Assembly: GCA_017452605.1 (NCBI GenBank)
Contig: JAFTMB010000047.1
Coordinates: forward strand, 1-54,598
From: Oscillospiraceae bacterium
Lineage (GTDB): Bacteria; Bacillota; Clostridia; Oscillospirales; Oscillospiraceae
DNA: 54,598 bases
Reading direction: 5' to 3'
The notes under the pieces are model-generated. The model had not been told where the DNA came from. It was given only the letters and a program-made list of their open reading frames with translations, and searched no databases. The position numbers were made by a program, and so were the translations under genes. This document shows positions 5,717-36,625 of the stretch, piece by piece (position 1 is the stretch's first letter; each line of letters begins with the position of its first letter).

Positions 5717-5731
5717 CTAATTAATTCAATC

Positions 5732-5845
5732 GTTCTTCAGGGCAGGGTGCAATTCCCGACCGGCGGTAAAGTCCGCGAGCGTGAAACTTCATGCTGAATC
5801 GGTGCAATTCCGATACCGACAGTAAAGTCTGGATGGAAGAAGAGC
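5732..5845 (+). promoter_or_regulatory. FMN riboswitch (RFN element)
   Basis: The conserved RFN blocks occur in order: TTCAGGGCAGGGTG, ATTCCCGACCGGCGGTA, AGTCCGCGAGC, then ATTCCGATACCGACAGTA and AGTCTGGATGG. The ends pair as a P1 stem (TCTTC with GAAGA). It precedes a terminator hairpin and ribU, so FMN binding should switch off the riboflavin transporter. Confidence 0.97.
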
Positions 5846-5864
5846 TGCTTGACAGCCATACTTT

Positions 5865-13622: not shown

Positions 13623-15116
13623 ATGGCAAAGTTTGTACCCCAGGGAGAGCTGCCGGTTTCCGAGCAGGCCCAGATTCGCCGGGATAAGCTGGCGGCGCTG
13701 CAGGCTGAGGGCAGAGATCCCTTTGTAATTACCAAGTTTGATTTTAATGCTGACTCTGCTTCCATCAAGGCAGACTACGATGCCTACGAGGGTAAGACAG
13801 TTAAGGTGGCTGGCCGTCTGATGAGCAAGCGCGGTCAGGGCAAGGTCATGTTCTGCGATTTGCAGGATGCCACCGGCCGCATCCAGCTGTTTGTCAAGAT
13901 TGACGAGCTGGGTGAGGAGGAGTACGCCCGTTTTAAGAAGAACGATATTGGCGATATTCTGGGCGTAGAGGGCGAGATTTTCAAGACCAAGACCGAAGAA
14001 ATCTCTGTCCGGGCCAAGGCTGTTACCCTGCTTTCCAAGTCTCTGCTCCCCCTGCCGGAGAAGTTCCACGGCCTTACCGATAAGGAAATGCGTTTCCGTC
14101 AGCGGTATGTGGACCTGATGGTGAATCCCGAAGTTAAGCGCAATTTTGTGATTCGCTCCCAGTTTATCAAGTTCATGCGTAATTATCTTGACAACATGAA
14201 CTATATTGAGGTAGAGACCCCGGTGCTGAACACCATCGCAGGCGGCGCTTCCGCCCGTCCCTTTGTTACCCACCACAACACCCTGGACATTGATATGTAC
14301 ATGCGAATTGCCACCGAGCTGCCTCTGAAGCGGCTGATTATCGGCGGCATGGACCGGGTGTATGAGATTGGCCGTATCTTCCGTAACGAGGGTATGGACC
14401 CCAAGCACAATCCGGAGTTTACCTCCGTTGAGCTGTACCAGGCTTATGCCGATTTCCACGATATGATGGACATTGCCGAGGGTATCATCTCCGGCGCTGC
14501 CAAGGAAATTCTGGGCACTTATGAAGTGGAGTGGATGGGCGAGAACATCGACCTGACCCCCGGCTGGCGGCGTATGACCATGGTTGAGGCGGTTAAGGAG
14601 TATGTTGGCATTGACTTTGGCGCCATTACCGATGATGCCGAGGCGGTTGCTGCCGCCAACGCCAAGGGTGTGGAGCTGGCAGATGCCGCAGAAAAGACCT
14701 GGGGCAACGCTCTGTATGCCTGCTTCGACCAGAAGGTGGAAGAGCATCTGATTCAGCCTACCTTTATTACCATGTATCCGGTGGAGGTTTCTCCTCTTAC
14801 CAAGCGCAGCCCCGAGGATTCCAGACTCACCGAGCGCTTTGAGCTGTTTATCTGCCACAGCGAGCTTGCCAACGCCTACTCCGAGCTCAATGACCCCATT
14901 GACCAGAGAGGCCGGTTTATGAAGCAGGTGGAACAGCGGGAGCGCGGCGACGATGAGACCGAAATGCTGGACGAGGATTTCCTGACCGCAATGGAATATG
15001 GTATGCCTCCCACGGGCGGTATGGGCATCGGCGTAGACCGGGCCGTGATGCTGCTGACTGGTAACGACACCATCCGGGAAGTCATCCTGTTCCCCACGAT
15101 GAAACCTGTCGATTAA
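13623..15116 (+). CDS. lysS: Lysyl-tRNA synthetase, class II, with element-replaced C-terminus
   Basis: A 497-residue class II LysRS. It has an OB-fold anticodon-binding domain (about 60-150), motif 1, motif 2 (FRNEGMDPKHNPEF) and motif 3 (GMGIGVDRAVMLLT), all intact. The last codons read FPTMKPVD. The 17 bases 15090-15106 are a repeat present again at 22372 and, diverged, at 24317, where the codons read PTMKPLD and are followed by a terminator. The present 3' end was therefore supplied by an inserted element. Enzyme function should be unchanged. Confidence 0.96.
   Translation: MAKFVPQGELPVSEQAQIRRDKLAALQAEGRDPFVITKFDFNADSASIKADYDAYEGKTVKVAGRLMSKRGQGKVMFCDLQDATGRIQLFVKIDELGEEEYARFKKNDIGDILGVEGEIFKTKTEEISVRAKAVTLLSKSLLPLPEKFHGLTDKEMRFRQRYVDLMVNPEVKRNFVIRSQFIKFMRNYLDNMNYIEVETPVLNTIAGGASARPFVTHHNTLDIDMYMRIATELPLKRLIIGGMDRVYEIGRIFRNEGMDPKHNPEFTSVELYQAYADFHDMMDIAEGIISGAAKEILGTYEVEWMGENIDLTPGWRRMTMVEAVKEYVGIDFGAITDDAEAVAAANAKGVELADAAEKTWGNALYACFDQKVEEHLIQPTFITMYPVEVSPLTKRSPEDSRLTERFELFICHSELANAYSELNDPIDQRGRFMKQVEQRERGDDETEMLDEDFLTAMEYGMPPTGGMGIGVDRAVMLLTGNDTIREVILFPTMKPVD
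15090..15106 (+). repeat. Attachment site 1 (lysS end, left junction of element 1)
   Basis: TTCCCCACGATGAAACC is identical to 22372-22388 and 14/17 identical to 24317-24333. It lies in frame at the end of lysS. It is read as attL of a 7.3-kb element that restored the LysRS tail with KPVD and a stop. Confidence 0.85.
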
Positions 15117-15170
15117 TGTCGAATTTTGTATCTTTTTATAACTTTTTAAGAGGTTAAAGTCGTTAAAAAG

Positions 15171-15188
15171 TACCACTTGGTAACCAAT
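15171..15188. other. Small palindromes inside the left end of element 1
   Basis: TACCA-NN-TGGTA (15171-15182) overlaps the palindrome TTGGTAACCAA (15178-15188). They lie 65-80 bases inside the element end and could be integrase or excisionase sites. Inferred only from position. Confidence 0.3.
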
Positions 15189-15212
15189 TTCAAAACAAAA
15201 AGATATAAAAAC

Positions 15213-15270
15213 TTATATAACCAAAAAGAGGTTCTACTGTTTTGAGTAGAGCCTCTTTTTGGTTATATAA
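15213..15270 (+). terminator. Long hairpin between lysS and xis
   Basis: A 24-bp stem with a single G-U pair (15213-15236 with 15247-15270, loop of 10) contains a T5 run in the descending arm. It can end lysS transcription in place of the displaced native terminator and insulate xis. The 10-bp arms at 15271-15280 and 15311-15320 form a further inverted repeat over the xis start. Confidence 0.75.
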
Positions 15271-15315
15271 TTCATGTGTCGAAAGACAGAATAATATAGA
15301 TTGGAGTCGAGACAC

Positions 15316-15513
15316 ATGAAAAAGGAAGTCCCTATTTGGGAGAAATCAAATCTGACCATCGAAGAGGCCGCTGCGTATTTCAACATTGGTGAGAACAAAT
15401 TGCGGAAACTGGCAGCTGATGAAAGTTGCACGTTTGTCTTATGGGTGGGCAGCAAGTGCCTAATCAAGAAGGCATGTTTTGAGGAATACCTAAGAAAACG
15501 GTATTCTATTTAG
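15316..15513 (+). CDS. xis: Excisionase (Tn916 Xis-like)
   Basis: 65 residues with the winged-helix MerR-like fold of Tn916-type excisionases: NLTIEEAAAYFNIGENKLRK, then a basic wing and a C-terminal FEEYLRKRYSI. Xis bends the element ends and favours excision by the integrase. ATG 15316 has GGAG 9 bases upstream. An inverted repeat (15271-15280 and 15311-15320) overlaps the start and could be an autoregulatory site. It precedes int by 13 bases, the standard xis-int order. Confidence 0.85.
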   Translation: MKKEVPIWEKSNLTIEEAAAYFNIGENKLRKLAADESCTFVLWVGSKCLIKKACFEEYLRKRYSI

Positions 15514-15526
15514 GGAGGTGATGTAT

Positions 15527-16750
15527 ATGGGTAAATCAGCGCGTTATGACAGTAACCGGGTAAAGCTCCGCACAGGTGAATACCAAAAACCTGACGGGCG
15601 ATATGAGTTTCGCTATACGGTGTTTGGAAAGAAGTATTCTGTTTATGCCAAGAGCCTGGACGAACTGCGAGATAAAGAAACTGAAATCTATTCGGTGAAA
15701 ACTGCAAACCAGACGAGGTTTGATAGCCGGACCACTACACTGAATGATGTGTTTGGATTGTGGAAGGAACTGAAGCGAGGCTTGCGTCCGAATACATTTC
15801 AAAACTATTGTTATATGTACCAACAATACGTGCAGGAAGGCCTGGGCCGGCAGTATATTGCTAGTATTAAGAAGTCTGATGTAAAGAGGTTCTTTAATCA
15901 CCTTGCTGATGAGCGCCGACTAAAGGAGGGGACCATTGAGGCAGTGCAGACCATTCTGCATCAGGTGTTCCAAATTGCTGTGGACGATGAATGGATCGAA
16001 AAGAATCCTTCTGACAATGCTGTTAAGGAGCTCAAACGATCACACCAAATGGACAGCAAGAAGCGCCAGGCATTGTCCAAGGCTGAACAGGATCTCCTAT
16101 TATCCTTCCTGTCACAAAACACACCGAATGCACGGTGGTATCCTATTACTGCCGTGCTGCTGGGTACCGGTATGCGTGTTGGTGAAGCAACTGGACTTAG
16201 GTGGTGCGATATTGACTTTGACGAAGGGATGATTGATGTGAACCACACTCTAGTATATTACAGCAACGGAAATCACCGGTGCAAATATGCCATTAACGAT
16301 ACTAAGACGCCTGCCAGTAAGCGGTTGATCCCTATGACAGAAACCGTCCGAGAAGTTTTCCTGATGGAAAAAGAAATGCAGGAGCAGGTAGGAGTTACTT
16401 GTGACGTTTCTATTGATGGATACACAGACTTCGTTTTTCTCAATCGCTTTGGTGGTTTGCATACTCAGGGAACACTGAACAAGGTGTACAAGCGCATTAT
16501 CCGGGATTGTAATGATGCCGAGTTTCTAAAGAGTGAGGATCCTCCGGTTCTGCTGCCCAACTTCAGTAGCCATAATCTGCGACATACCTTTGCCACAAGA
16601 CTGTGCGAATCCGGAATGAACATAAAATTGATCCAAGACATCCTGGGACATTCCGATATTTCTACAACGATGGATATATACACACATGTTACACAGGAAG
16701 CAAGGCTTCAAGCTCGGAAGTATATGGAGCAATATTGCAAAACATATTAA
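15527..16750 (+). CDS. int: Tyrosine recombinase/integrase (Tn916 family), copy 1
   Basis: 407 residues. An N-terminal arm-binding domain (about 1-60, YEFRYTVFGKKYSVYAKSLD) is followed by a core-binding SAM-like domain (about 70-165) and a catalytic domain. Catalytic residues are visible: R in TGMRVGEATGLRW, H-x-x-R in HNLRHTFATRL, H in LGHSDIST, and Y in MDIYTHV. The start is ATG 15527, 8 bases after GGGAGG. Base composition is more AT-rich than lysS. It belongs to the element inserted at lysS; a second family member lies at 20970-22202. Confidence 0.93.
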   Translation: MGKSARYDSNRVKLRTGEYQKPDGRYEFRYTVFGKKYSVYAKSLDELRDKETEIYSVKTANQTRFDSRTTTLNDVFGLWKELKRGLRPNTFQNYCYMYQQYVQEGLGRQYIASIKKSDVKRFFNHLADERRLKEGTIEAVQTILHQVFQIAVDDEWIEKNPSDNAVKELKRSHQMDSKKRQALSKAEQDLLLSFLSQNTPNARWYPITAVLLGTGMRVGEATGLRWCDIDFDEGMIDVNHTLVYYSNGNHRCKYAINDTKTPASKRLIPMTETVREVFLMEKEMQEQVGVTCDVSIDGYTDFVFLNRFGGLHTQGTLNKVYKRIIRDCNDAEFLKSEDPPVLLPNFSSHNLRHTFATRLCESGMNIKLIQDILGHSDISTTMDIYTHVTQEARLQARKYMEQYCKTY

Positions 16751-16766
16751 TAAACTGAATTGGCAA

Positions 16767-16799
16767 CGGGCTTGCTGATTGCATTAATCAGCAAGCCCG
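16767..16799. terminator. Hairpin between converging int (copy 1) and the 216-residue gene
   Basis: A perfect 14-bp stem (16767-16780 with 16786-16799, loop of 5) lies 16 bases after int and 17 bases from the opposing stop. It has no clear T-run, so termination is inferred from its position between convergent genes. Confidence 0.6.
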
Positions 16800-16816
16800 C
16801 GCTTGATTTAAGAATT

Positions 16817-17467
16817 TTATGAATCCGATGTACTAGCTAAGAAATTCACGATCTTGTCCAAAAATGGTTGCATACGCCAATAGCTGAGTTTTGCATGCTC
16901 AATTTCGAGTTCAATCTGCTTTTTGGCTTCGGTCTCTATGTGTGCCAGGTTTCTTAATGCATATATTTTCTTGATATCTTCAGCATACACGGCGTCGATA
17001 AATCCGATGCGTACGCAACAATCTACCTTATCGCTAAACGGTATGCTATTTTTTGGCGTTTTTTCATCTTTGTATACGCATGTGTAGATTTGTTCGTCAC
17101 CGTATTTAATGGTCGTTAAATTAGCCAATGCGCAAATAGGTTTATATGCTTTATGTGTTTGTAGCGTAACAACCTCTTTGTGATCTTTGAACTTATTCCA
17201 AAGCAAATGCGTAATTACTGCTTCATAAATGGATGCATACTGCATTACTTGGAATTTTATAAATGAGTGCAATTCATTATCTTGTACATAAAGTGCTTCC
17301 ATAAGTTTAGACATATACCGGGCGGCATAAAAAGCCCTACCCAGACGCTCTCGTAGTTCAATATCATCGATGAAGATAAACTGTTGAATATGCCAATTTA
17401 AATCACCGGGTAAATCTTTTGAACAATACAAGTGAATTTGATCTCGCAAAGTCTTTTCTAGTGACAT
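16817..17467 (-). CDS. Uncharacterised 216-residue cargo protein
   Basis: No family recognised with confidence. The sequence is mostly predicted helix, without signal or membrane segment. Near the C-terminus lies ALRNLAHIETEAKKQIELE (R172, H176). This recalls the R-N-x-x-x-H signature of HEPN nucleases, but has one residue too few between R and H, so a HEPN assignment is only a suggestion. It sits downstream of, and in the same direction as, the DUF4209-like gene (126-base gap), inside the lysS-inserted element. The two may act together. The start has GGAGG 6 bases upstream. Confidence 0.7.
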   Translation of the reverse strand: MSLEKTLRDQIHLYCSKDLPGDLNWHIQQFIFIDDIELRERLGRAFYAARYMSKLMEALYVQDNELHSFIKFQVMQYASIYEAVITHLLWNKFKDHKEVVTLQTHKAYKPICALANLTTIKYGDEQIYTCVYKDEKTPKNSIPFSDKVDCCVRIGFIDAVYAEDIKKIYALRNLAHIETEAKKQIELEIEHAKLSYWRMQPFLDKIVNFLASTSDS

Positions 17468-17593
17468 ATGACCGCCTCCTTGCCAGTGCTTCTAAATTAG
17501 TTATTGAATTTTATTAGCTAATAATTCTGTGACCTCAAGCTTATATGGGAGAATTCTACTAATGAAGTGCTTTGAGTAACCAATAGATGCTGG

Positions 17594-19408
17594 TTAGCTT
17601 TGGCTTTGATTGTCCGGTTTGTCAGCTCTCGACTCCTCACGCTTGGCAAGGTCCATTCGTATGGGACGAGCATGGGCTCCGTATAAACTCAACAAGAATA
17701 TGATAAGACTAACGAAATATAAAGAGGTAACGCTGTTGCCAACCTCGGGTTCAAGCAATCCATGACCGTTTAGATTCCGTAAGTTCTCGCCGGCAGGGTC
17801 GTCCATAATACTTTGGAAAGTGAAGATTAGATTCTCATCATAACACTCAAGCAGTTTTTCGGACTTGAACAAGCTTGAAAGAGGCTTGTATTCCTCAGAT
17901 CCGTCATCTTTCAAAAATGTAACGGTATCACCACAAATTTTAACCAGATTCCTAAAAATGTTTTCTGTTTGGGGTAGGAGGAGATGCATTGCCGCATATA
18001 GGTTTCCATTAAGAGCCATACAAAGGCCTTGTTGGATTATTTCAGCTCGCTTATCAGGAATAATCGCATTATCACGAACCAAAAAATCTAATGCATCTTC
18101 TGTGACCGGTCCGAATTTTTGCATCAACTGGAATGCTATTCTTACGGGAAGAGAATCTACCAATCTCCTTTGCTCAGCAACATATCGCACCATATGCTTT
18201 TTTATAGCATCCGGATTTTCGGAATCAGATGAATCTCTGACTGAGGGAAGTTCCAATACTGATTGCCCCTGTTCGTTCAGTAGACTACTTCGGAACAGTG
18301 ATGTGAAAACATATTTCTCTTGCTTTTCAAGCAGCTCCTTTTTTACATCTTCTATGTGATATATTTTTACAATTCTTCCAAACTGCACAATAGCTTCAGA
18401 AAGCGACAAACCGTCAAATAATTGCTCAACCGCATCATAGGTAGGCTTTAAATCAATCTCAAATTTATGAAAATGCATGTCTTTTATGGCAATCTTCTGC
18501 CACTCTTCTAGCAATTGCCGTAGTTCTAACAACTTTTCCTGATTTATGCCGGCGTATAAGGTGCATGCTTTTTTGAGCATGAACACTGCTCTAAAATAAT
18601 CGTTTTTCTGAGCCAGGGATTTCGCCTGAATTTCGTAGTAATTGGCATACTTACCTTTAAACGCTTTCAGTTCTGCATCATTCTTCAATCTGCTGTATAG
18701 TTTCTCTAGAACAGAGAAAGTTGTGTCAGCAAGGTTTGCGTTGTTGTTGGAAGGGTTCAGATTTTTGCCAGCCAGGATACTAATGATTGAGTCATACTTT
18801 GGCAAATCTTCTTTAGGAGCATCCTTTACTATAAGTCCAAGTAATTTTAGGGAAAGGAACGATGTATCAGAGCCGTTCATTTGCATCAGTTTTTCGTTGA
18901 TTGCAGCTCGGGTCTGTTTGAAACTATCTGACTTGTTACCCATCATAGACGAAATATGATATGCTGAACGAATTTGATCATAGCAGTCAACCCAATGTTC
19001 GGGGTTGAACTGCTTTTGGAATTCATCGACGTATCCTGCCACAGCTATTTTACCATAGCTATTGTCTCTGGTGAGCGACCACACAATGTGAGAAAACTTT
19101 GTGCGAAGATAAGTAGAACCGGTAAGTTGGATTGCATTACGTAGGATATCTAAATCATCTTCTTTAATGTCCTCGGGTGCAAACGACCTGCTTCCATCCT
19201 TCCATATTATAAGTGGACCAAATGTGCGCTCCTTTGACTTATAATACATTGTAGAAGCACCGGCAATAACATCCAGTATATGAGCCTCTGTTTTACTGGG
19301 TGCTTTCTCAGATGCTTCCCGGATAAGGGATATCGAGCCAGTATCGTGATCTTTTATTACAGGATCTACGGAAGCAATAACATCAAGAACGTATTGAGAA
19401 AAATCCAT
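17594..19408 (-). CDS. DUF4209-domain protein with HEPN-type RNxxxHG motif
   Basis: 604 residues. The body is a long, mainly helical region with no recognised catalytic site. Near the C-terminus is NLRNLNGHGLLEP (R544, N545, H549, G550), matching the RNxxxHG motif that defines DUF4209 and resembling the active site of HEPN ribonucleases. A hydrophobic segment (about 561-577) follows, then a basic, polar tail. The family's function is not established. Being cargo between two integrases and upstream of a small partner gene suggests a defence or toxin role, which is inference. The ATG has AAAGGAGG upstream. Codon use is AT-rich relative to the host. Confidence 0.75.
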   Translation of the reverse strand: MDFSQYVLDVIASVDPVIKDHDTGSISLIREASEKAPSKTEAHILDVIAGASTMYYKSKERTFGPLIIWKDGSRSFAPEDIKEDDLDILRNAIQLTGSTYLRTKFSHIVWSLTRDNSYGKIAVAGYVDEFQKQFNPEHWVDCYDQIRSAYHISSMMGNKSDSFKQTRAAINEKLMQMNGSDTSFLSLKLLGLIVKDAPKEDLPKYDSIISILAGKNLNPSNNNANLADTTFSVLEKLYSRLKNDAELKAFKGKYANYYEIQAKSLAQKNDYFRAVFMLKKACTLYAGINQEKLLELRQLLEEWQKIAIKDMHFHKFEIDLKPTYDAVEQLFDGLSLSEAIVQFGRIVKIYHIEDVKKELLEKQEKYVFTSLFRSSLLNEQGQSVLELPSVRDSSDSENPDAIKKHMVRYVAEQRRLVDSLPVRIAFQLMQKFGPVTEDALDFLVRDNAIIPDKRAEIIQQGLCMALNGNLYAAMHLLLPQTENIFRNLVKICGDTVTFLKDDGSEEYKPLSSLFKSEKLLECYDENLIFTFQSIMDDPAGENLRNLNGHGLLEPEVGNSVTSLYFVSLIIFLLSLYGAHARPIRMDLAKREESRADKPDNQSQS

Positions 19409-19579
19409 ACTACGGTCCTCCTTTGCTCTATTTTATTTTTGTGCTGTATTTTCGGTAGAAAGCAACGTTCTTGCTTAATTAGATAACTAAATTAAGCAAG
19501 AATGTCAGGCGGCGAAGAGAGGTTAGCGGTGTGATTAAGACTTTGACTGGCGGTTTGCTTAGGACATTGATGGGGATGA

Positions 19580-20572
19580 TTATACTTTCACATATCTTTG
19601 ATTTCTGCTATTTGGCTTATCTGGAATGGTCATACGGATCAGATTGAGTTCGATTGCCGGATGCAGGTAATTTCTGCGGAAGCCTTCCTTAGACTTCAAA
19701 CCCAGCTTTTCCATTAGTGCCAAACTGGAATAGGGGATATCATATTCCATAGCATCTAACAGCCGTTTGACATATTCCGAAAGCTGTTCACTATCTTCGC
19801 TGAGCTGAACAGAAATATCGTCCAGGATCTTATCAATCTGAGACAGCGTAAATACGATAAATGCTGTGGATTCTCCATCAATGTGGCATTTAGCAATTGC
19901 GTTATAGTAGTCCTCTTGGAATTTTTCTATCTGACTTTCAATGGGGATATATTCGAAAACAGGCTTCCACTTGGAAAGGATTGCGGTATGCCACAATCGT
20001 GCCATTCTTCCGTTGCCGTCAGAGAAGGGGTGGATGAAGACAAATTCATAATGGAATACGCTGCTGAGGATCAACGGATGTATCGTGGCCTTTGATGCAT
20101 TCAGCCATCCAAATAGATCGTCCATGAGTTGATGCACGAACTTAGCTGGTGGTGCCATGAAAATACACTGATCACCGTTAAAGACACCTTCTTCACCACG
20201 GCGAAATTCGCCGGACTCATCCAAAAGGTATTTTGTCATGATGCCATGGAACACTTTCAGGTCTTGGATACTGAAAGGATCAATCTCGGAGAGCTTTTCG
20301 TAGGCAGCGTAAGCGTTTTTAACTTCTTGAATTTCTTTCTGCTCGCCTAGGACGGTTTTGCCGTTGATAACATCTCTAACCTGTCCCAAAGAGAGGGAAT
20401 TAGCTTCGATCCGCAGGGAGGAATGAATTGATTTGATCCGGTTGTTTTTACGCAAATGGGGCTTTGATTCCAGATTGGTGGTGGCCGTGATACGGCCAAC
20501 TTTTTCTGAAATTGACGACACATAGGATAAGATCTCATTTGTAATTGTGAAAGGGGGCTTGTAGTCTTTCAA
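19580..20572 (-). CDS. Fic family protein (class II, self-inhibited)
   Basis: 330 residues. A Fic/DOC AMP-transferase domain carries HPFSDGNGRMARLW from H181, the complete HPFx(D/E)GNGRxxR active site. Upstream, SSLRIEAN (S52, E56) matches the inhibitory-helix motif (S/T)xxxE, so it is expected to be autoinhibited. A C-terminal winged-helix-like region follows. Family members transfer AMP or other groups to target proteins; the target here is unknown. Translation probably starts at TTG 20572, which has GGAGGTG upstream. It is cargo of the lysS-inserted element. Confidence 0.9.
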   Translation of the reverse strand: MKDYKPPFTITNEILSYVSSISEKVGRITATTNLESKPHLRKNNRIKSIHSSLRIEANSLSLGQVRDVINGKTVLGEQKEIQEVKNAYAAYEKLSEIDPFSIQDLKVFHGIMTKYLLDESGEFRRGEEGVFNGDQCIFMAPPAKFVHQLMDDLFGWLNASKATIHPLILSSVFHYEFVFIHPFSDGNGRMARLWHTAILSKWKPVFEYIPIESQIEKFQEDYYNAIAKCHIDGESTAFIVFTLSQIDKILDDISVQLSEDSEQLSEYVKRLLDAMEYDIPYSSLALMEKLGLKSKEGFRRNYLHPAIELNLIRMTIPDKPNSRNQRYVKV

Positions 20573-20756
20573 AATAACACCTCCAACAACTTGCGTACTA
20601 TCTTGCGTACTATCTGCCTTTATTATACACTATAGCAGGCAGAAATCAATCTTAAAATGAAAACTAAATTATTAAAATACGAAGGATTTCTAGCACTTAG
20701 GCTTGACTTTCTGTCTTACAATAATTATAATGTAAGTGTGTGGAGGTGGCAGTGCA

Positions 20757-20924
20757 ATGAGAACTGGAAGACCAAAGATGGAAAATGCGAAAAGGAAGAC
20801 GATTACAATTCGCTTATCGGAGGATCTTTACAAGAAAATCATTGAATACGCTACCGAGCACAAATTGTCAAAGACAGATGTTGCCCTGCAAAGCTTGGAG
20901 AAGTTTTTATCCAAGGAAAAGTAA
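20757..20924 (+). CDS. Small ribbon-helix-helix DNA-binding protein
   Basis: 55 residues. The basic N-terminus RTGRPKMENAKRK is followed by a beta strand and two helices (TITIRLSEDLYKKIIEYA; HKLSKTDVALQSLEKFL), the ribbon-helix-helix pattern of Arc/CopG regulators. ATG 20757 is 10 bases after GGAGG. It is 45 bases upstream of integrase copy 2 and divergent from fic, so it may regulate either, or serve as a recombination accessory factor. Confidence 0.7.
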   Translation: MRTGRPKMENAKRKTITIRLSEDLYKKIIEYATEHKLSKTDVALQSLEKFLSKEK

Positions 20925-20969
20925 GTGCTATGGAATCCTTCTTTATCATTACATAAAGGAGGAAATGAC

Positions 20970-22202
20970 ATGGCAAAAACACGTAGAGATAACCGAGGAA
21001 GGGTACTTAGGAAGGGAGAGGTTCAGAGAGCTTCCGACAAGCGCTATATGTACACTTACACCGACCCGCTGGGACGGCGCAGGTACATATATGCAAATGA
21101 TTTGACAGAGCTTCGTGAAAAGGAAAAGAAACTGATAAAGGACCAGATGGACGGCTTAGATCTGTACGTAGCCGGCAAGGCTACGGTCAATGATACTTTT
21201 GACCGTTATCTTTCAACCAAGTTTCAGCTGAGGGAAACCACTCGCAGCAATTACATCTATATGTACGATAAGTACGTTAGAGAAACTTTCGGTAAAAAGA
21301 AGATCGCAGAAATCAAGTATTCTCATGTCCTGCAGTTTTATCTTCACCTGCTTAACGAAGAAGAGTTGGCACTCAGCACACTGGATGTTATCAACACTTT
21401 ACTGCATCCAACATTTCAGCTGGCAGTACGGGATGAGATCATTCGCAAGAATCCCTCTGACGGTGTGATGAAGGAGATTTGCCGAGAGTCAGATAAAACC
21501 AGAGGAATGCGCAGAGCGCTGACACTTGAGCAGCAGCGGGCATTTATGGGCTATATAGAAAATCACCCGGTTTATTACCATTGGTGGCCCTTGTTCACTG
21601 TGTTGTTGGGCACCGGATGCCGGATTGGTGAGGCTCTTGGATTACGGTGGGATGATCTAGAGTTTGAAAACCGAGTCATCAACATCAACCATAGCATGGT
21701 ATATTACCCGGTGGGCGAATCCCGAACCTCTGTACAGAAAATCTCTAAACCGAAGACCGAGGCTGGCATTCGAACAGTTCCAATGCTTGATATGGTATAC
21801 GATGCCTTTATGTTCGAACGAGAAGAACAAGAAGAGAGCGGTTTCAACCAAACCGTCATTGATGGAATAAGCGGTTTCGTTTTTGTGAATCGGAACGGTG
21901 GCGTGCCTAACCCGCAGACCATTAACCGGACGATCAAACGAATCGCCCATAACTACAATTCGGAAGAGATTGTACAGGCTAAGAAAGAGCACCGCGATCC
22001 AATCATTCTTCCGGACTTCTCTTGCCATCATCTTAGGCATACCTTCTGTACCAGGCTTTGTGAACACGAAACCAATCTGAAAGTGATTCAGGCAATCATG
22101 GGTCATCGTAACATTGAAACGACGATGGACGTGTATGCAGAAGCCACAGAACGCAAGAAGCAACAAACCTTTGAAAACCTGTCGAAACTGGACATCTTCT
22201 AA
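20970..22202 (+). CDS. int: Tyrosine recombinase/integrase (Tn916 family), copy 2
   Basis: 410 residues, the same architecture as copy 1 but clearly diverged: arm-binding domain (YMYTYTDPLGRRRYIYANDL), core-binding domain and catalytic domain. Catalytic residues R (TGCRIGEALGLRW), H-x-x-R (HHLRHTFCTRL), H (MGHRNIETT) and Y (MDVYAEA) are present. ATG 20970 has AAAGGAGG 8 bases upstream. It lies 170 bases before attachment site 2, so it is at the right end of element 1. It could be the enzyme that recognised the lysS site, or a leftover of an older element. Confidence 0.92.
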   Translation: MAKTRRDNRGRVLRKGEVQRASDKRYMYTYTDPLGRRRYIYANDLTELREKEKKLIKDQMDGLDLYVAGKATVNDTFDRYLSTKFQLRETTRSNYIYMYDKYVRETFGKKKIAEIKYSHVLQFYLHLLNEEELALSTLDVINTLLHPTFQLAVRDEIIRKNPSDGVMKEICRESDKTRGMRRALTLEQQRAFMGYIENHPVYYHWWPLFTVLLGTGCRIGEALGLRWDDLEFENRVININHSMVYYPVGESRTSVQKISKPKTEAGIRTVPMLDMVYDAFMFEREEQEESGFNQTVIDGISGFVFVNRNGGVPNPQTINRTIKRIAHNYNSEEIVQAKKEHRDPIILPDFSCHHLRHTFCTRLCEHETNLKVIQAIMGHRNIETTMDVYAEATERKKQQTFENLSKLDIF

Positions 22203-22236
22203 GAAGGGTTCTCAGTGCGTAGGTCTGACAACAAAA

Positions 22237-22355
22237 TCCTGCAATGACAATATGTTGACAACAAAGTTTGCTATCAACCTGATGCAATATGATACGATAT
22301 GACAAAGGGTAAGTGTAGCAAAAGGAGCGATATGAGCGAATATGATGCAGTATGA
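22237..22355 (+). repeat. Repeat-rich right end of element 1
   Basis: TGATGCAATATGA (22280-22292) recurs as TGATGCAGTATGA (22343-22355), and the block contains further ATATGA steps. TCCTGCAATGA (22237-22247) recurs at 24238-24248, near the right end of element 2. These are probably integrase arm-type or accessory sites; inferred from position next to the attachment sites. Confidence 0.5.
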
Positions 22356-22371
22356 CGAGGCTTCAAACCAT

Positions 22372-22388
22372 TTCCCCACGATGAAACC
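22372..22388 (+). repeat. Attachment site 2 (junction of elements 1 and 2)
   Basis: Exact 17-base copy of 15090-15106. Read in the lysS frame it continues as FPTMKPLAE and stop (22399-22401), a second complete LysRS tail with no gene upstream. It fits attR of element 1, made by insertion into the attL of an older element 2. Confidence 0.85.
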
Positions 22389-22406
22389 CCTCGCAGAGTA
22401 ATATTA

Positions 22407-22445
22407 AGCCGAAAACGTTTATTTCTAAGCGTTTTCGGCTTTTTG
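22407..22445 (+). terminator. Terminator after the second lysS-like tail
   Basis: A perfect 11-bp stem (22407-22417 with 22430-22440) followed by TTTT, starting 6 bases after the KPLAE stop. It would have ended lysS when only element 2 was present. Apart from this, attachment site 2 and the flanking repeats, 22203-22665 holds no gene I can support. Confidence 0.85.
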
Positions 22446-22478
22446 TTTATCCAAATTATTGCTTAAAAATGTGGTTTC

Positions 22479-22498
22479 CGACAGATTTACGACGAATG
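22479..22498 (+). repeat. Left copy of a 20-21-base repeat bracketing element 2
   Basis: CGACAGATTTACGACGAATG matches 24184-24204 with one inserted base and one change. The copies are about 90 and 113 bases inside the two ends of element 2, in direct orientation, as expected for arm-type recombinase sites. Confidence 0.5.
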
Positions 22499-22665
22499 AG
22501 CAGGCCAACAGACCTTGGAGATTACGAAAATAATGCGTAGTAAACGCAATGTATCAACATGATTACCGCTTAAATAATAAATAGAACCGAATATATGAAA
22601 ATTGAGATTTTTCATAATTGATATGCTATAATTCAGTAAATGCATTCGTGGAAAGGTCAGATCGT

Positions 22666-23394
22666 ATGTATGCCATAAGGACTGCTAATCTAACTAAAAA
22701 GTATAAGGATATCATTGCGGTAGACCAATTAAATTTGCAGGTTAAAAAAGGCGAATTGTTTTCTCTGCTCGGCGTAAACGGAGCCGGCAAAACAACCACG
22801 ATTAAAATGTTGTCTTGCCTCACACAGCCCACAAGTGGCGATGCTTTTTTGAATGGAAAAAGCATTTGCAAAGATATTGCCGCTGTGAAATCGCTCATAG
22901 CCGTTTCTCCGCAGGAAACTGCGGTTGTACCCGGACTTTCGGTTCGAGAGAACCTTGAACTGATGTGCGGTGTTCACGGTTTTACAAAGGAAAAGCAAAA
23001 AGCGAAAATCGCAGAACTAACCGAACTTCTAGGACTGGAAGCTGTTATCAAGAAAAAAGCGGGCAAACTGTCCGGCGGCTGGCAACGCAGACTTAGTATT
23101 GCAATGGCACTGATCAGCGAACCGAAGATATTGTTTCTTGACGAGCCAACGCTTGGTCTTGATGTGCTTGCTAGAAGCGATCTGTGGGATTTGATTCGTT
23201 CTCTTAAAGGGAAAGTAACCATAATTCTTACAACGCACTATATGGAAGAAGCGGAAGCTTTGTCTGACCGTATCGCTATTATGAAAGACGGCAAACTTCT
23301 TATCTGTGACACTGCTGACAAGATAAAAGCAAGGGCAGGTACAGATGATTTTGAACAAGCATTTATCCATATTGTCAAGGGGGTGGCAAAATGA
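22666..23394 (+). CDS. ABC transporter ATP-binding protein (exporter type)
   Basis: 242 residues, CcmA/DrrA-like ATPase. Walker A is GVNGAGKTTT near residue 37. The signature is LSGGWQRRLSIAMAL, with Trp where most have Gln/Met. Walker B is ILFLDEPTLGLD, and the H-loop TTHYMEEAEALS is typical of drug or lantibiotic-type exporters. ATG 22666 follows GGAAAGG. The next gene overlaps it by 4 bases and encodes the permease. The pair is the only cargo of element 2. Substrate unknown. Confidence 0.92.
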   Translation: MYAIRTANLTKKYKDIIAVDQLNLQVKKGELFSLLGVNGAGKTTTIKMLSCLTQPTSGDAFLNGKSICKDIAAVKSLIAVSPQETAVVPGLSVRENLELMCGVHGFTKEKQKAKIAELTELLGLEAVIKKKAGKLSGGWQRRLSIAMALISEPKILFLDEPTLGLDVLARSDLWDLIRSLKGKVTIILTTHYMEEAEALSDRIAIMKDGKLLICDTADKIKARAGTDDFEQAFIHIVKGVAK

Positions 23395-24122
23395 GAATGC
23401 TCGCGTTTGCAAACAAAAATACAAAAGAAATACTACGAGATCCGCTGACACTTTTCTTTGGACTCGGTTTTCCTCTTGTTTTGATTTTACTGTTAAGCGC
23501 TATACAAGCCAATATCCCCGTAGAGCTGTTTGAAATACAGCATTTAACTCCGGGCATAACGGTTTTCGGCCTGGCATTTATGACATTGTTTTCGGCAACT
23601 ATAATCGCAAAAGACAGAGGCAGTTCGCTATTGCAGCGTTTGTATACAACGCCACTGACTCCAATGGATTACATTCTCGGCTATACGTTGCCAATCATTC
23701 CGATTTCTGTCGCTCAATGCGTTATCTGCTATATTGCTGCAATCTTTCTCGGGCTGGACATTACGGTAAATATTTTATATGCTGTGTTATTTATCATTCC
23801 TGTTTCCATCCTCTACATTGCCTTGGGACTTCTTTGTGGAAGCGTACTGAACGATAAGCAGGTAGGTGGTATCTGCGGTGCGTTGCTAACTAACCTTTCG
23901 GCGTGGCTGTCCGGCGTTTGGTTTGATCTTGACCTTGTAGGAGGTGCTTTTAAGAAGATTGCATATGCACTTCCGTTTGTACACGCAGTAGAGATGGAGC
24001 GGGCTGTGCTTGCAGGTGATTTTACAGGGATTTTCCCGCATCTGTGGTGGGTGATTGGATATGCTACTGTTCTGCTCGTGTTAGCTGTTTTGTTGTTCCT
24101 GCGGCAGATGAAAAAGCAGTAA
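23391..24122 (+). CDS. ABC-2 type permease
   Basis: 243 residues with six predicted membrane helices, ABC-2/DrrB type. It begins KEILRDPLTLFFGLGFPLVLILL, the usual cytoplasmic amphipathic helix and first span. The central AKDRGSSLLQRLYTTPLTPMDYILG is the family's coupling region. Start and ATPase stop overlap (ATGA). It forms an exporter with the preceding ATPase; the substrate cannot be inferred. Confidence 0.9.
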   Translation: MRMLAFANKNTKEILRDPLTLFFGLGFPLVLILLLSAIQANIPVELFEIQHLTPGITVFGLAFMTLFSATIIAKDRGSSLLQRLYTTPLTPMDYILGYTLPIIPISVAQCVICYIAAIFLGLDITVNILYAVLFIIPVSILYIALGLLCGSVLNDKQVGGICGALLTNLSAWLSGVWFDLDLVGGAFKKIAYALPFVHAVEMERAVLAGDFTGIFPHLWWVIGYATVLLVLAVLLFLRQMKKQ

Positions 24123-24183
24123 TTCTTCATATTGGAGAATATGTACTTCATTGTCGTACATAGTAAACACCTTCCTATTTTCA

Positions 24184-24248
24184 CGACAGATTTTACGACA
24201 AATGGGATAAACTTATGCTGTTTTATGACAGGTTATATCCTGCAATGA
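24184..24248 (+). repeat. Right-end repeats of element 2
   Basis: 24184-24204 repeats 22479-22498, and 24238-24248 (TCCTGCAATGA) repeats 22237-22247 at the right end of element 1. This indicates that the right ends of the two elements are related. No gene is seen between 24123 and 24450. Confidence 0.5.
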
Positions 24249-24316
24249 AAACACATTGGGTTAACAAATTAAGGAAAAGACAGCATAAATAAGGTTATAA
24301 GATTTGTCTCGTGGGA

Positions 24317-24333
24317 ATCCCCACCATGAAGCC
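24317..24333 (+). repeat. Attachment site 3 (ancestral lysS 3' end, right junction of element 2)
   Basis: ATCCCCACCATGAAGCC is 14/17 identical to sites 1 and 2. In the lysS frame it reads PTMKPLD and stop (24341-24343), the usual LysRS C-terminus, and is followed 12 bases later by a strong terminator. It is best read as the original chromosomal lysS tail. Confidence 0.8.
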
Positions 24334-24355
24334 TCTGGATTAACAAGCTACATTG

Positions 24356-24386
24356 AAAGGCCTGCGTTTTTACGCAGGCCTTTATT
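24356..24386 (+). terminator. Ancestral lysS terminator, displaced 9.2 kb
   Basis: A perfect 11-bp stem (24356-24366 with 24373-24383) with a T-rich loop and a weak T tail, 12 bases after the relict PTMKPLD stop. No gene ends just upstream today. Confidence 0.8.
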
Positions 24387-24450
24387 TTGCCGCTTTTCTT
24401 TTGACTAAGGATGTGCTATGATAGGAAAAACGAGGAAGAAGGAAGTTTTT

Positions 24451-24948
24451 ATGGAAGAAAAATACATATTCAGAAAAGCTACGCAGCAGGAGATTCCTGC
24501 GGTGTTTGCCCTGATTATGCGCCGGGTGGCGTGGATGGACACGGTGGGAATCCGTCAGTGGAACACCACCAAGTATGACCAGCGGTATCCTCTTGACTAT
24601 TATGAGCGCCGTCGGCAAATGGACGAGCTGTTCGTTTTGGAGGACGGGGAATCGGGAAAAATCCTGAGTGTGGGCGCGCTGTTTCACGATGACGAGCGCT
24701 GGCCTGACCCGGAGTCTGCCTATTATCTGCACCATTTGGCGTCGGATGTGGATGCCAAGGGCACGGGCAGCATCTTTTTAGCGATGGCGGAGCGCTACAC
24801 CGCCAGTCAGGGCAAGCAGTATTTGCGGTTGGATTCCGCTGTTGGCAACAAAACTCTGGAACACTACTATGCCAGCCGCGGCTATGTGGAAGCAGGAACC
24901 TGTGTAGACGGATTGTATCAGGGAATCCTGCGACAGAAAAAACTGTGA
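24451..24948 (+). CDS. GNAT family N-acetyltransferase
   Basis: 165 residues with the GNAT fold: N-terminal IFRKATQQEIPAVFALI, the central beta strands (LSVGALFHDDERW), the acetyl-CoA region around KGTGSIFLAMAERYTASQ, and the C-terminal LEHYYASRGYVEAG. The acceptor substrate is unknown. ATG 24451 follows AGAAGGAAG. It is the first resident gene to the right of the lysS insertions and is ended by a bidirectional terminator shared with the DUF4886-like gene. Confidence 0.85.
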   Translation: MEEKYIFRKATQQEIPAVFALIMRRVAWMDTVGIRQWNTTKYDQRYPLDYYERRRQMDELFVLEDGESGKILSVGALFHDDERWPDPESAYYLHHLASDVDAKGTGSIFLAMAERYTASQGKQYLRLDSAVGNKTLEHYYASRGYVEAGTCVDGLYQGILRQKKL

Positions 24949-24989: not shown

Positions 24990-25955
24990 TTATGGACGCG
25001 TACCTTCGGTGAAGGCGGACTGGGTCACCTCGTAGGGATTGGCGACGGCGTTGGTTGCCGCCTCACGGGCAACCGCCAGCATTTCATCACTGATGTTTTC
25101 AGGAGAGGGGTTGTAGGTGATGTTATCCACGGGAGAGCCTGTAATGGCGGCATACCAGGTAAGGCCAGCGATATATCTGCCAATTTCCATATCCAGGTGG
25201 AAGCCGTCCCGGGTCAGGGTGTCGCCGATAAAAGAGGTACGGGCGTTCTGAATCGCCGTGCCTGCGGGAATGACAAAGGAAATTTGATCTTCTGTAAGGA
25301 CATAATCCTTTATACAGTCAAGGATCATATTATACATCTTCATTTGATCGTTGCCGTAGGCGGAAAACGAGCCCTCACGGTAGTCTGCCTGATAGGCCCA
25401 GGTCATGTGCCACACCAGCTTGGCGGAGGTGTTTCTTTCCCGGACATATTGGATGAGCTTGGGCAAGGCGTCTTCATAGGTATAATCCTTGCCGCTGGAG
25501 CCGGAGTTTTGCTGCATGGTGATGTAGTCCCAATCTTCATCTTCCAGCGCCTGGGAGAGTTTATAGTTGTCTGTTGCTTCCCAAGTGCCGGTGGTGTTTT
25601 TGTAATAGGTATAATTGGGAGCGTCGGAGATGGCAAAATTGACATGACGGCCAAGGGTTGCGCCGCCGTTGTAGAGATTACCCAGCACGATTTTCTTCAC
25701 GCCGCCGTCCTGGGCGATTTGGTATAAGTACTCCATGGCGTCAATGGAAAAGCTTCCGCCGATAGCCAGGATTTTCAGAGTGTCTGAATCGTCAGCAGCG
25801 CCGGTGGACTCGGTGGTGCCGGTAGATTCGCCTGCGCCGGTAGACTCACTGAAGCCGGTGGAATCAGAAGGATCGTTGGCGGGAGCGGTTGCCGGGCCGC
25901 AGCCGCTTAGTAGCGCAAGGCAGAGGAGCAGGCAAAGAATTTTTACAAGTTTCAT
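24990..25955 (-). CDS. DUF4886-like SGNH-type lipoprotein, copy 1
   Basis: 321 residues. A lipoprotein signal with lipobox LLSGC is followed by a Ser-Thr-Gly linker made of ESTG-type repeats (about 30-54) and a DUF4886-like SGNH-hydrolase domain: block I LKILAIGGSFSIDAMEYL, WDYITMQQNSGSSG, and C-terminal DTLTRDGFHLD, which holds the probable Asp-His pair. It should be anchored outside the membrane; an esterase or carbohydrate deacetylase role is possible but unproven. Block I reads GGSFS where many relatives read GNSFS. Last of four tandem paralogues on the minus strand, separated from copy 2 by a terminator. AGAAAGG lies before the start. Confidence 0.85.
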   Translation of the reverse strand: MKLVKILCLLLCLALLSGCGPATAPANDPSDSTGFSESTGAGESTGTTESTGAADDSDTLKILAIGGSFSIDAMEYLYQIAQDGGVKKIVLGNLYNGGATLGRHVNFAISDAPNYTYYKNTTGTWEATDNYKLSQALEDEDWDYITMQQNSGSSGKDYTYEDALPKLIQYVRERNTSAKLVWHMTWAYQADYREGSFSAYGNDQMKMYNMILDCIKDYVLTEDQISFVIPAGTAIQNARTSFIGDTLTRDGFHLDMEIGRYIAGLTWYAAITGSPVDNITYNPSPENISDEMLAVAREAATNAVANPYEVTQSAFTEGTRP

Positions 25956-26025: not shown

Positions 26026-27009
26026 TTATTTAGCGCTTTCTGTAAAGGCAGACTGGGTCACTTCGTAGGGATTGGCGACGGCGTTGATGGCGGCTTCCTT
26101 GGCAACCTTTATCATATCGTCGGTAATCGCGAGCTTGGCGGGGTTGAAAGAAATGTCATCAATAGAGGATTGGGTCAAAGCGGCGTACCAGACCATGCCG
26201 GCGATGTAACGACCGATCTGCTTGTTCAGGTGGAAGCCGTCCCGGGTCAGGGTATCTCCGATGAAGGAGGTACGGGCGTTCTGAATAGCCGTGCCTGCGG
26301 GAATGACGAAGGAGAAGCGGGGTTCGGTGAGGATGCACTCGTGGACACAGTCTACGATCATGTCGTACATCTTCTGCTGATTGCTCTCGTAGAGGGGGAA
26401 CTCAGAGTGGGTGCAATCTGCCTGATAAGCCCAGGTCATGTGCCAAACCAGCTGAGCGGTGGTGTTTCTTTCCCGGACATAGTCAATCAAGTTGGAAAGC
26501 GCGCCAAAGGTGTCGCTTTTGCCGCTGGAGCCGGAGTTCTGCTGCATAGTGATGTAGTCCCACTGCTCATCTACCAGAGCCTCGGACAAGCGGATCTTCT
26601 TGGGAGAAGGCCAGTTGCCTTCGGTGTTCTTATAGTAATCGTAGGTGGGTTCGTCTGCCTGGGCGAAGTCCCAATGGGCGTCGAGGGTGGCGCCGCCGGA
26701 GAAAAGGTTGGCAAGCACGATTTCTTCCACGCCTGCGTCCTCGGCGATTTGATATACATACTGCAAAGCGTCCTGAGAGAAGCTGCCGCCGATGGCAAGC
26801 ACCTTCAAGGACTTGGGAGTTTCTTTGTTGAGCACATCGGGCTTAGCAGCGCCGGTGGACTCGGTTGTACCGGTGGATTCGGTCGTGCCGGTGGATTCAG
26901 AAGAGCCGGTGGAGTCGGAAGGATCATCAGCCGGATCGCTGGCAGGCGCGCAGCCACACAGCAGCAGGGTTACGCACAGGAACAAGCACATAATTCTTAA
27001 AAGTTTCAT
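26026..27009 (-). CDS. DUF4886-like SGNH-type lipoprotein, copy 2
   Basis: 327 residues, same plan as copy 1: lipobox LLCGC, an ESTGTT-repeat linker (two perfect 6-residue units plus variants), then the SGNH-like domain (VLAIGGSFSQDALQYV; WDYITMQQNSGSSG; DTLTRDGFHLN). The final block has Asn after His instead of Asp. Block I again is GGSFS. The start has AGGAGG 9 bases upstream. Its downstream neighbour, copy 1, has its own ribosome-binding site and is separated by a terminator. It lies about 40 bases after copy 3 with a leader identical to that between copies 3 and 4. Confidence 0.85.
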   Translation of the reverse strand: MKLLRIMCLFLCVTLLLCGCAPASDPADDPSDSTGSSESTGTTESTGTTESTGAAKPDVLNKETPKSLKVLAIGGSFSQDALQYVYQIAEDAGVEEIVLANLFSGGATLDAHWDFAQADEPTYDYYKNTEGNWPSPKKIRLSEALVDEQWDYITMQQNSGSSGKSDTFGALSNLIDYVRERNTTAQLVWHMTWAYQADCTHSEFPLYESNQQKMYDMIVDCVHECILTEPRFSFVIPAGTAIQNARTSFIGDTLTRDGFHLNKQIGRYIAGMVWYAALTQSSIDDISFNPAKLAITDDMIKVAKEAAINAVANPYEVTQSAFTESAK

Positions 27010-36189: not shown

Positions 36190-36345
36190 CAAGAGTCTGG
36201 CAGTTGTGTCAAAACGCTGTATTCCGGCTCCGGACGCCTGAATCGGCAGGTCTTCTCAGATTGCTCCAATGACCTTACCAGGCTATTATGTCCGTCTACG
36301 GCGGCTTGGTACCGCTGGGATTTAGTTCCCATTCCAATTACGTAT
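36190..36345 (-). promoter_or_regulatory. Cobalamin riboswitch controlling the ECF operon
   Basis: On the minus strand the conserved blocks occur in order: ATGGGAACTAAATCCC, CCAAGCCGCC, GTCATTGGAGCAATCTGAG with AAGACC, and AGACCTGCCGATTCAGGCG near the end. They match the B12-riboswitch core, and a terminator follows. The 20 bases at 36252-36271 are the exact reverse complement of 36541-36560 in the plus-strand riboswitch. The ends are approximate. Confidence 0.87.
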
Positions 36346-36356
36346 TTGACCCTGAT

Positions 36357-36385
36357 AGCATACCACATTTTTTAAGGATACGCAA
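36357..36385 (-). promoter_or_regulatory. Minus-strand promoter of the ECF operon
   Basis: On the minus strand TTGCGT (36380-36385) and TATGCT (36357-36362) with a 17-bp spacer, just upstream of the riboswitch. Confidence 0.6.
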
Positions 36386-36403
36386 TCAATTTTTCACTTT
36401 TTC

Positions 36404-36432
36404 TTGTAATTTCCAGATGGAAGTGGTACAAT
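36404..36432 (+). promoter_or_regulatory. Plus-strand promoter of the DUF4430 lipoprotein gene
   Basis: TTGTAA (36404-36409) and TACAAT (36427-36432) with a 17-bp spacer, back to back with the minus-strand promoter. Confidence 0.65.
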
Positions 36433-36439
36433 AAAGAAG

Positions 36440-36625
36440 CTTTGCGGGAAATCAGGTGCAAATCCTGAGCGAGTCCGTCGCCGTGAAATGCGTGAAGCCC
36501 TCTTCTTACCCTTTTCGCGCCGCAACGAAAGGGAACAGGCCATTGGAGCAATCTGAGAAGGCTGAAGATGGGCGCATTGAGCCGGAATATCTGCATGGCA
36601 GCGCCCTCATTTTATCCGCTGCGAG
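36440..36625 (+). promoter_or_regulatory. Cobalamin riboswitch controlling the DUF4430 lipoprotein
   Basis: Conserved blocks occur in order: GCGGGAAATCAGGTGCAAAT, CCTGAGCGAGTCCGTCGCCG, GTGAAGCCC, and GCCATTGGAGCAATCTGAG with AAGGC (36540-36562). No terminator with a T-run is seen before the gene. A stem GCAGCG/CGCTGC (36599-36622) lies close to the ribosome-binding site AAGGAG, so control could be at translation; this is inference. Ends are approximate. Confidence 0.85.

Follow-up and report, generated by a model that had tools for sequence, protein, structure and literature searches.

Two probable site-specific elements at one lysS site in an Oscillospiraceae genome, and apparent related insertions at a LysRS domain junction in other Clostridia

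Why does the 3' end of lysS, the gene for lysyl-tRNA synthetase (LysRS), recur twice more, in frame, downstream of the gene itself? The question is raised by contig JAFTMB010000047.1 of an Oscillospiraceae bacterium (assembly GCA_017452605.1), whose positions 1 to 54,598, read on the forward strand, make up the stretch analysed here (the window). A 17-base query taken from the lysS end, allowing up to three mismatches, finds three matches in the window against a chance mean of 0.17, and none of 100 shuffled sequences reaches three, which rules out a chance origin of the repeats. Copies 1 and 2 of this core are identical over all 17 bases (TTCCCCACGATGAAACC), and copy 3 (ATCCCCACCATGAAGCC) matches them at 14 of 17; read in frame, the three give FPTMKPVD, FPTMKPLAE and IPTMKPLD, each followed by a stop codon. 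The three in-frame lysS ends that a sequence-only reading of this DNA had pointed out are thus real. Across the whole window genome, a degenerate core pattern recovers just these three sites, with one match for the reversed control.

The cores delimit two segments, E2 (15107-22388) and E1 (22389-24316), which we read with high confidence as two site-specific elements that probably entered the same lysS site in turn, and whose counterparts in relatives appear to cut off or swap a LysRS domain. E1 would have inserted first and E2 second, each leaving its own final codons and stop. In each event, a tyrosine integrase would recombine the core of a circular element with the core in lysS; the 5' part of the gene would keep its frame and take a new end from the element, and the old end would be pushed to the far side. 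Integration, excision and the order of insertion are inferred.

In SIG483, an Oscillospiraceae metagenome-assembled genome (MAG), the lysS body matches that of the window at 947 of 1387 bases (68%), whereas the KPVD tail and the E2 left end match at 1363 of 1474 (92%). In genome G188, a lysS body of 59% identity (767/1294) is followed directly by an E1 left end of 89% identity (97/109), with the tail KTLAE. Because tails and element ends match far better than lysS bodies in both genomes, the elements supply the tails, and the earlier proposal that each brings its own lysS end is borne out for E2 and E1 alike. E1-type left ends also follow lysS in G049 and G216 (72-bp matches). A different SIG483 contig is 95.7% identical over 5810 bp to window positions 16583-22391, from late in one integrase gene (int1) through a second (int2); to the right of this E2 copy lie a KPLD end and stop, and then DNA unmatched in the window, with no E1. 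A single 9.2-kb element is disfavoured by this occurrence of the right part of E2 without E1.

The open reading frames (ORFs) scanned in E1 (1.9 kb) encode an ABC transporter pair; none of them encodes an integrase. By eye, arm-like repeats of one type lie at both of its ends, and its right end is homologous to DNA just 3' of integrase genes or gene fragments in G144, G213, G216, G339 and, weakly (E 7e-5), G083. Because these homologues adjoin integrases, E1 is likely an integrase-less member of a group that carries an integrase at the same right end; with repeats at both ends and no integrase, it would be a remnant that moves only with help. Such features recall cis-mobilizable elements (CIMEs), which, like their accretion in tandem, are known (PMC5704250; this and the other papers are cited from partial texts). 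As in a CIME, E1 lies without an integrase between attachment (att) sites, beside an integrase-bearing element (PMC5704250): attL and attR are kept, at the cores beginning at 22372 and 24317, with both ends homologous to element ends, and no integration or transfer genes remain among the scanned ORFs; in kin that share this right end, an integrase is encoded there. Unlike CIMEs, the array occupies a protein-gene site at which every tail is readable, and E2 has two integrases.

E2 (7.3 kb) encodes an excisionase and two lysS-type tyrosine integrases, one near either end, with candidate phage-defence genes between them. Since int1 begins about 410 bp beyond copy 1 and int2 ends 170 bp before copy 2, E2 has a tyrosine integrase adjoining the lysS core at either end, and E1 alone has none. 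The two share R, HxxR, H and Y residues, which we take to be those of the tyrosine-integrase motif. No relaxase or conjugation family is among the Pfam and NCBIfam matches of the seven E2 ORFs scanned, which sets E2 apart from integrative and conjugative elements (ICEs) and integrative and mobilizable elements (IMEs). In kin, arm-site-like repeats stand between roughly -146 and -115 relative to the core at many right ends, and about 70-100 bp after the core at many left ends.

The presence of two integrases suggests that E2 might itself be composite, a fusion of two tandem lysS elements (an int1 unit and an int2 unit) whose middle core was lost, and the evidence leaves this account evenly poised. 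The two proteins are 40% identical; G264 retains an int1-type and then an int2-type integrase, each followed by a core, so that the core between them is kept; in G033, a Fic gene and an int2 remnant follow lysS with no int1 between; and the left-end repeats of E2 look, by eye, unlike the int2 right-end repeats. Against this, G022 has the same layout around other cargo (xis-int1 on the left, int2 on the right, a core after int2, and candidate GajA/OLD-like, AbiEi and SoFic defence genes between) with no core found between the integrases, and in SIG483 the int1 end, cargo and int2 are contiguous at 96%, so that E2 now seems to move as one unit. G022 also holds two lysS copies with different tails in one bin (contigs C35 and C43), an integrase element following the C35 copy.

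Because the E2 tail touches lysS and the E1 tail lies beyond E2, insertion of E1 before E2 is the most likely order, as the sequence-only reading had proposed. What tempers this part of the proposal is that E1 and E2 could have arrived together as one accreted tandem, in a single insertion in this lineage, a mode of transfer that has been described (PMC5704250). We consider joint arrival unlikely, given the right part of E2 without E1 in SIG483 and the E1-type left ends directly on lysS in G188, G049 and G216.

How widely are such elements distributed? By sequence match, the integrase family is present in many Clostridia. Among 394 genomes of the order, int1-type matches occur in 29 and int2-type matches in 35 (E ≤1e-60), sets that overlap because the two integrases are related; among 101 genomes of the genus, int2 is matched in 19 (E ≤1e-60) and int1 in seven (E ≤1e-100). 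At least 477 int2-family loci were found, and 80 from named genomes were kept, 56 of which have a core within 700 bp after the integrase in a strict search. In a set of 25 genomes selected for their lysS loci, matches to the core pattern number 50, against five for its reverse. Two close int2 relatives are broken, one by a frameshift (L219, 4457-5721) and one by an in-frame stop (L208, 13677-14951). In Blautia schinkii, two cores stand 192 bp apart (G492:C4, 112699 and 112891), the first in lysS, perhaps a minimal remnant. In G036 (C71, 6705-8164), lysS aligns in two overlapping segments, each in its own frame (residues 1-245 and 247-493).

In many relatives, LysRS is about 640-670 amino acids long and, in the one scanned, ends in a PF01588 tRNA-binding domain, which presumably has the same fold as the Trbp111-type tRNA-binding OB-fold. 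PF01588 was matched in one such fused LysRS and in two orphan domains, those scanned. In the fused lysS genes fetched, the core sits at the domain junction, and since it does so in the relatives examined, integration there would either cut a domain-bearing LysRS short, with its domain stranded as an ORF of its own, or swap in the domain of the element. Both outcomes appear to be represented. Thirty-one core-adjacent loci have a domain after the right end of the element: 27 are open from the core Met to the end, three are open with Leu in its place and one is frameshifted. A 32nd orphan locus (L176) was left out as it begins at a contig end; at one and the same residue, its broken tRNA-binding domain (3-346) and that of L174 (16439-16911) shift frame. 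Two core matches separated by 292 kb occur in the complete Blautia parvula genome, where LysRS is short: the first lies in lysS, the second ahead of an orphan domain. Across 19 named genomes with an element-side domain, lysS is short in 11, fused in seven and cut by a contig end in one. A fused LysRS together with an orphan in one genome implies that the element brought a new domain; the fused and orphan domains within a genome are identical at 115-154 of 155-166 residues (six compared), and in G494, G495, G498 and G506 the lysS gene and the orphan are on one contig. Most of the divergence of the orphans could be older than their separation from lysS. Arm-like repeats follow the domain stop in five of six fused loci examined, out of seven, G498 having none. 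Comparison of Blautia sp. Marseille-P3201T with Dorea phocaeensis gives 1002/1300 identities (77%) over the lysS body, 490/490 over core and domain, and 1023/1023 over the DNA that follows.

A tree of 57 LysRS bodies interleaves fused and short forms, with at least 13 changes, nine forced by well-supported branches and six among the 33 genus rows. Shuffled labels give a mean of 15.4 changes against the observed 13, with 39 and 64 of 500 shuffles as low; the counts describe scatter and turnover, not frequency. The tree was built by a quick method that carries a long-branch warning, 19 of its 57 rows were chosen for their integrase locus, and six duplicate loci, three partial genes and two cut by contig ends were left out. 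The clade of the window comprises 14 rows, all short, and the sole match to the domain in the window genome is a 697-amino-acid open frame, which we take to be MetRS. A further possibility, which we put forward tentatively, is that lysS elements act as a recurrent domain switch, leaving LysRS fused, truncated beside a free domain, or joined as a hybrid to a domain of the element, which would affect tRNA charging; as part of that same tentative proposal, translation of the free domain would begin from the ATG within the att core or from a start codon that the element provides. Candidate ribosome-binding sites before orphans are few by eye (L175, L115), and in-frame upstream ATGs occur before L115, L220, L223, L224, L283, L286 and others, with no general pattern in either case.

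Several observations weigh against this account of the locus and its relatives. Among the 80 int2-family loci, 24 show no core in the strict search; a core is nevertheless present in at least three of the 24 (L219, and L231 and L244 with Leu for Met). Inspection by eye finds none close to L215, L216 or the second L210 integrase. In G497 and G503, the fused lysS gene and the orphan domain are found on separate contigs. No clear copy of the int2 arm repeats was found at the E2 left end. An exact empty site, with lysS running directly into 24334-24386, is found in no relative examined. The sequence-only prediction of such a site was approached in G471, where lysS ends in KPLD and a stop and is followed, though not directly, by a 79% homologue of the window GNAT gene, as another GNAT gene and a different terminator-like hairpin intervene; the part that failed is the hairpin at 24356 directly after lysS, which was not found. 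GNAT homologues occur in six of the 101 genus genomes, that of the window included. The window genome is itself a MAG of 83 contigs, 83.8% complete, and in SIG483 lysS and the left part of E2 lie on one contig and the rest of E2 on another; the matches meet at window 16583/16584, with 113 (L219, 1-113) and 29 (end of L306) bases beyond them unmatched, and int1 may be interrupted there in SIG483, perhaps by an insertion.

This last break, near the int1 end, is one point in favour of reading the array as an assembly or binning artefact of the MAG; repeated att cores can break assemblies, and the contigs of several relatives stop at or just after the lysS core (G011, for example). Similar layouts in independent assemblies, among them large isolate contigs and the complete Blautia parvula genome, make an artefact very improbable. 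The suggestion that 22389-24316 is host DNA, with copy 2 or 3 a chance match or a gene-fragment duplication, draws on the 14/17 match of copy 3 and is scarcely credible, as no shuffle in 100 gives three matches, both E1 ends are element ends in other genomes and the G188 junction contradicts it.

The reading of E1 and E2 as site-specific elements accords with systems in print. Integration at lysS has been reported for Streptococcus ICEs (PMC4701971) and for vanD islands (PMC8301612, PMC10765050). Like the Streptococcus ICEs, the window elements pair a tyrosine integrase with the lysS 3' end, 13-17 bp repeats and a slight change of the protein end; those ICEs are conjugative and barely modify LysRS (PMC4701971), whereas in relatives of the window a whole domain can be lost or replaced. 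The vanD islands of Enterococcus lysS (Tn6711-Tn6713, ICEVREfm_vanD) span 112-143 kb (PMC8301612, PMC10765050); a Clostridiales origin was inferred for them and circles were reported (PMC8301612). They use the same site and the same 13-bp repeat, TTCCC[g/a/c]AC[a/g]ATGA (PMC8301612, PMC10765050), which copies 1 and 2 fit exactly and from which copy 3 (ATCCCCACCATGA) departs at two positions. By comparison, the window elements measure 7.3 and 1.9 kb, with no vanD-type genes seen, and the available portions of PMC8301612 and PMC10765050 describe no effect on a tRNA-binding domain of the kind found in relatives of the window. Trbp111-type fusions likewise end a synthetase in a tRNA-binding domain, as PF01588 does in LysRS here; they are named for MetRS, PheRS and TyrRS, with an Entamoeba LysRS cited (PMC11286949). 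What differs here is that the domain, in a bacterial LysRS, travels on an element or is severed by one. What appears new is the att site at the LysRS/PF01588 junction in relatives, with truncation or domain replacement; in the open-licence literature, we found no title or abstract on a LysRS domain lost or replaced by integration.

The usual description of integration at gene ends is that it does the protein almost no harm (PMC4701971, in the portion available). In many gut Clostridia, one att site falls at a domain junction of an essential enzyme, and a whole LysRS domain seems to have been lost or exchanged time and again through mobile DNA, which amounts to a natural experiment on the role of the C-terminal tRNA-binding domain. 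Our comparisons also suggest that the vanD-island lysS site is part of a far larger family in Clostridia, and candidate phage-defence cargo is present in both elements scanned for cargo (window E2 and that of G022).

Table 1. Features of the lysS array and its right flank, in window coordinates.
Feature	Coordinates	Strand	Basis
lysS; final codons (VD, stop) from E2	13623..15116	+	Pfam tRNA-synt_2, tRNA_anti-codon; identity step at core vs SIG483
Core copy 1, left end of E2	15090..15106	+	17-base query match
E2 left end, with the final two codons of lysS, their stop and a 26-nt inverted repeat	15107..15300	+	Identity to SIG483
Excisionase	15301..15513	+	Pfam Tn916-Xis 2.7e-22; NCBIfam excise
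Tyrosine integrase int1, Tn916-type arm-binding N-terminus	15518..16750	+	Pfam; R, HxxR, H, Y motif common to int2
216-aa ORF, no family match	16817..17467	-	Pfam, NCBIfam, defence-profile scans
DUF7380/DUF4209 protein, scores as PADLOC candidate defence PDC-S39	17594..19408	-	Pfam, defence-profile scans
Fic protein, scores as SoFic	19580..20572	-	Pfam, defence-profile scans
62-aa ORF preceding int2, ribbon-helix-helix-like by eye	20736..20924	+	No family match; homologue before int2 in L034, L041
Tyrosine integrase int2	20925..22202	+	Pfam; int2-family matches in relatives
Repeated TGACAACAAA (22226-22235, 22256-22265), likely integrase arm sites	22226..22265	+	Similar repeats at similar core distance in kin
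Core copy 2, where the right end of E2 meets the left end of E1	22372..22388	+	17-base query match
E1 left end, with LAE codons and stop, a hairpin resembling a terminator and, by eye, arm-like repeats at 22475-22496	22389..22496	+	89% identity over 110 bp just after the G188 lysS core
ABC transporter ATPase	22618..23394	+	Pfam, NCBIfam
ABC-2 permease	23391..24122	+	Pfam, NCBIfam
E1 right end, repeats TTTCACGACAGA/TTTTACGACAAA at 24179-24202	24139..24316	+	Homology to DNA after integrases in relatives
Core copy 3, right end of E1	24317..24333	+	17-base query match
Older lysS tail, likely displaced (LD, stop), with terminator-like hairpin	24334..24386	+	Sequence
Likely host-side GNAT gene	24418..24948	+	lysS and 79% homologue near neighbours in G471

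Elsewhere in the window, two similar lipoprotein-like genes neighbour each other to the right of the GNAT gene (24990-25955 and 26026-27009, minus strand), an FMN riboswitch lies at 5729-5848 (plus strand), and two cobalamin riboswitches stand back to back on opposite strands (36198-36385, minus; 36387-36612, plus).

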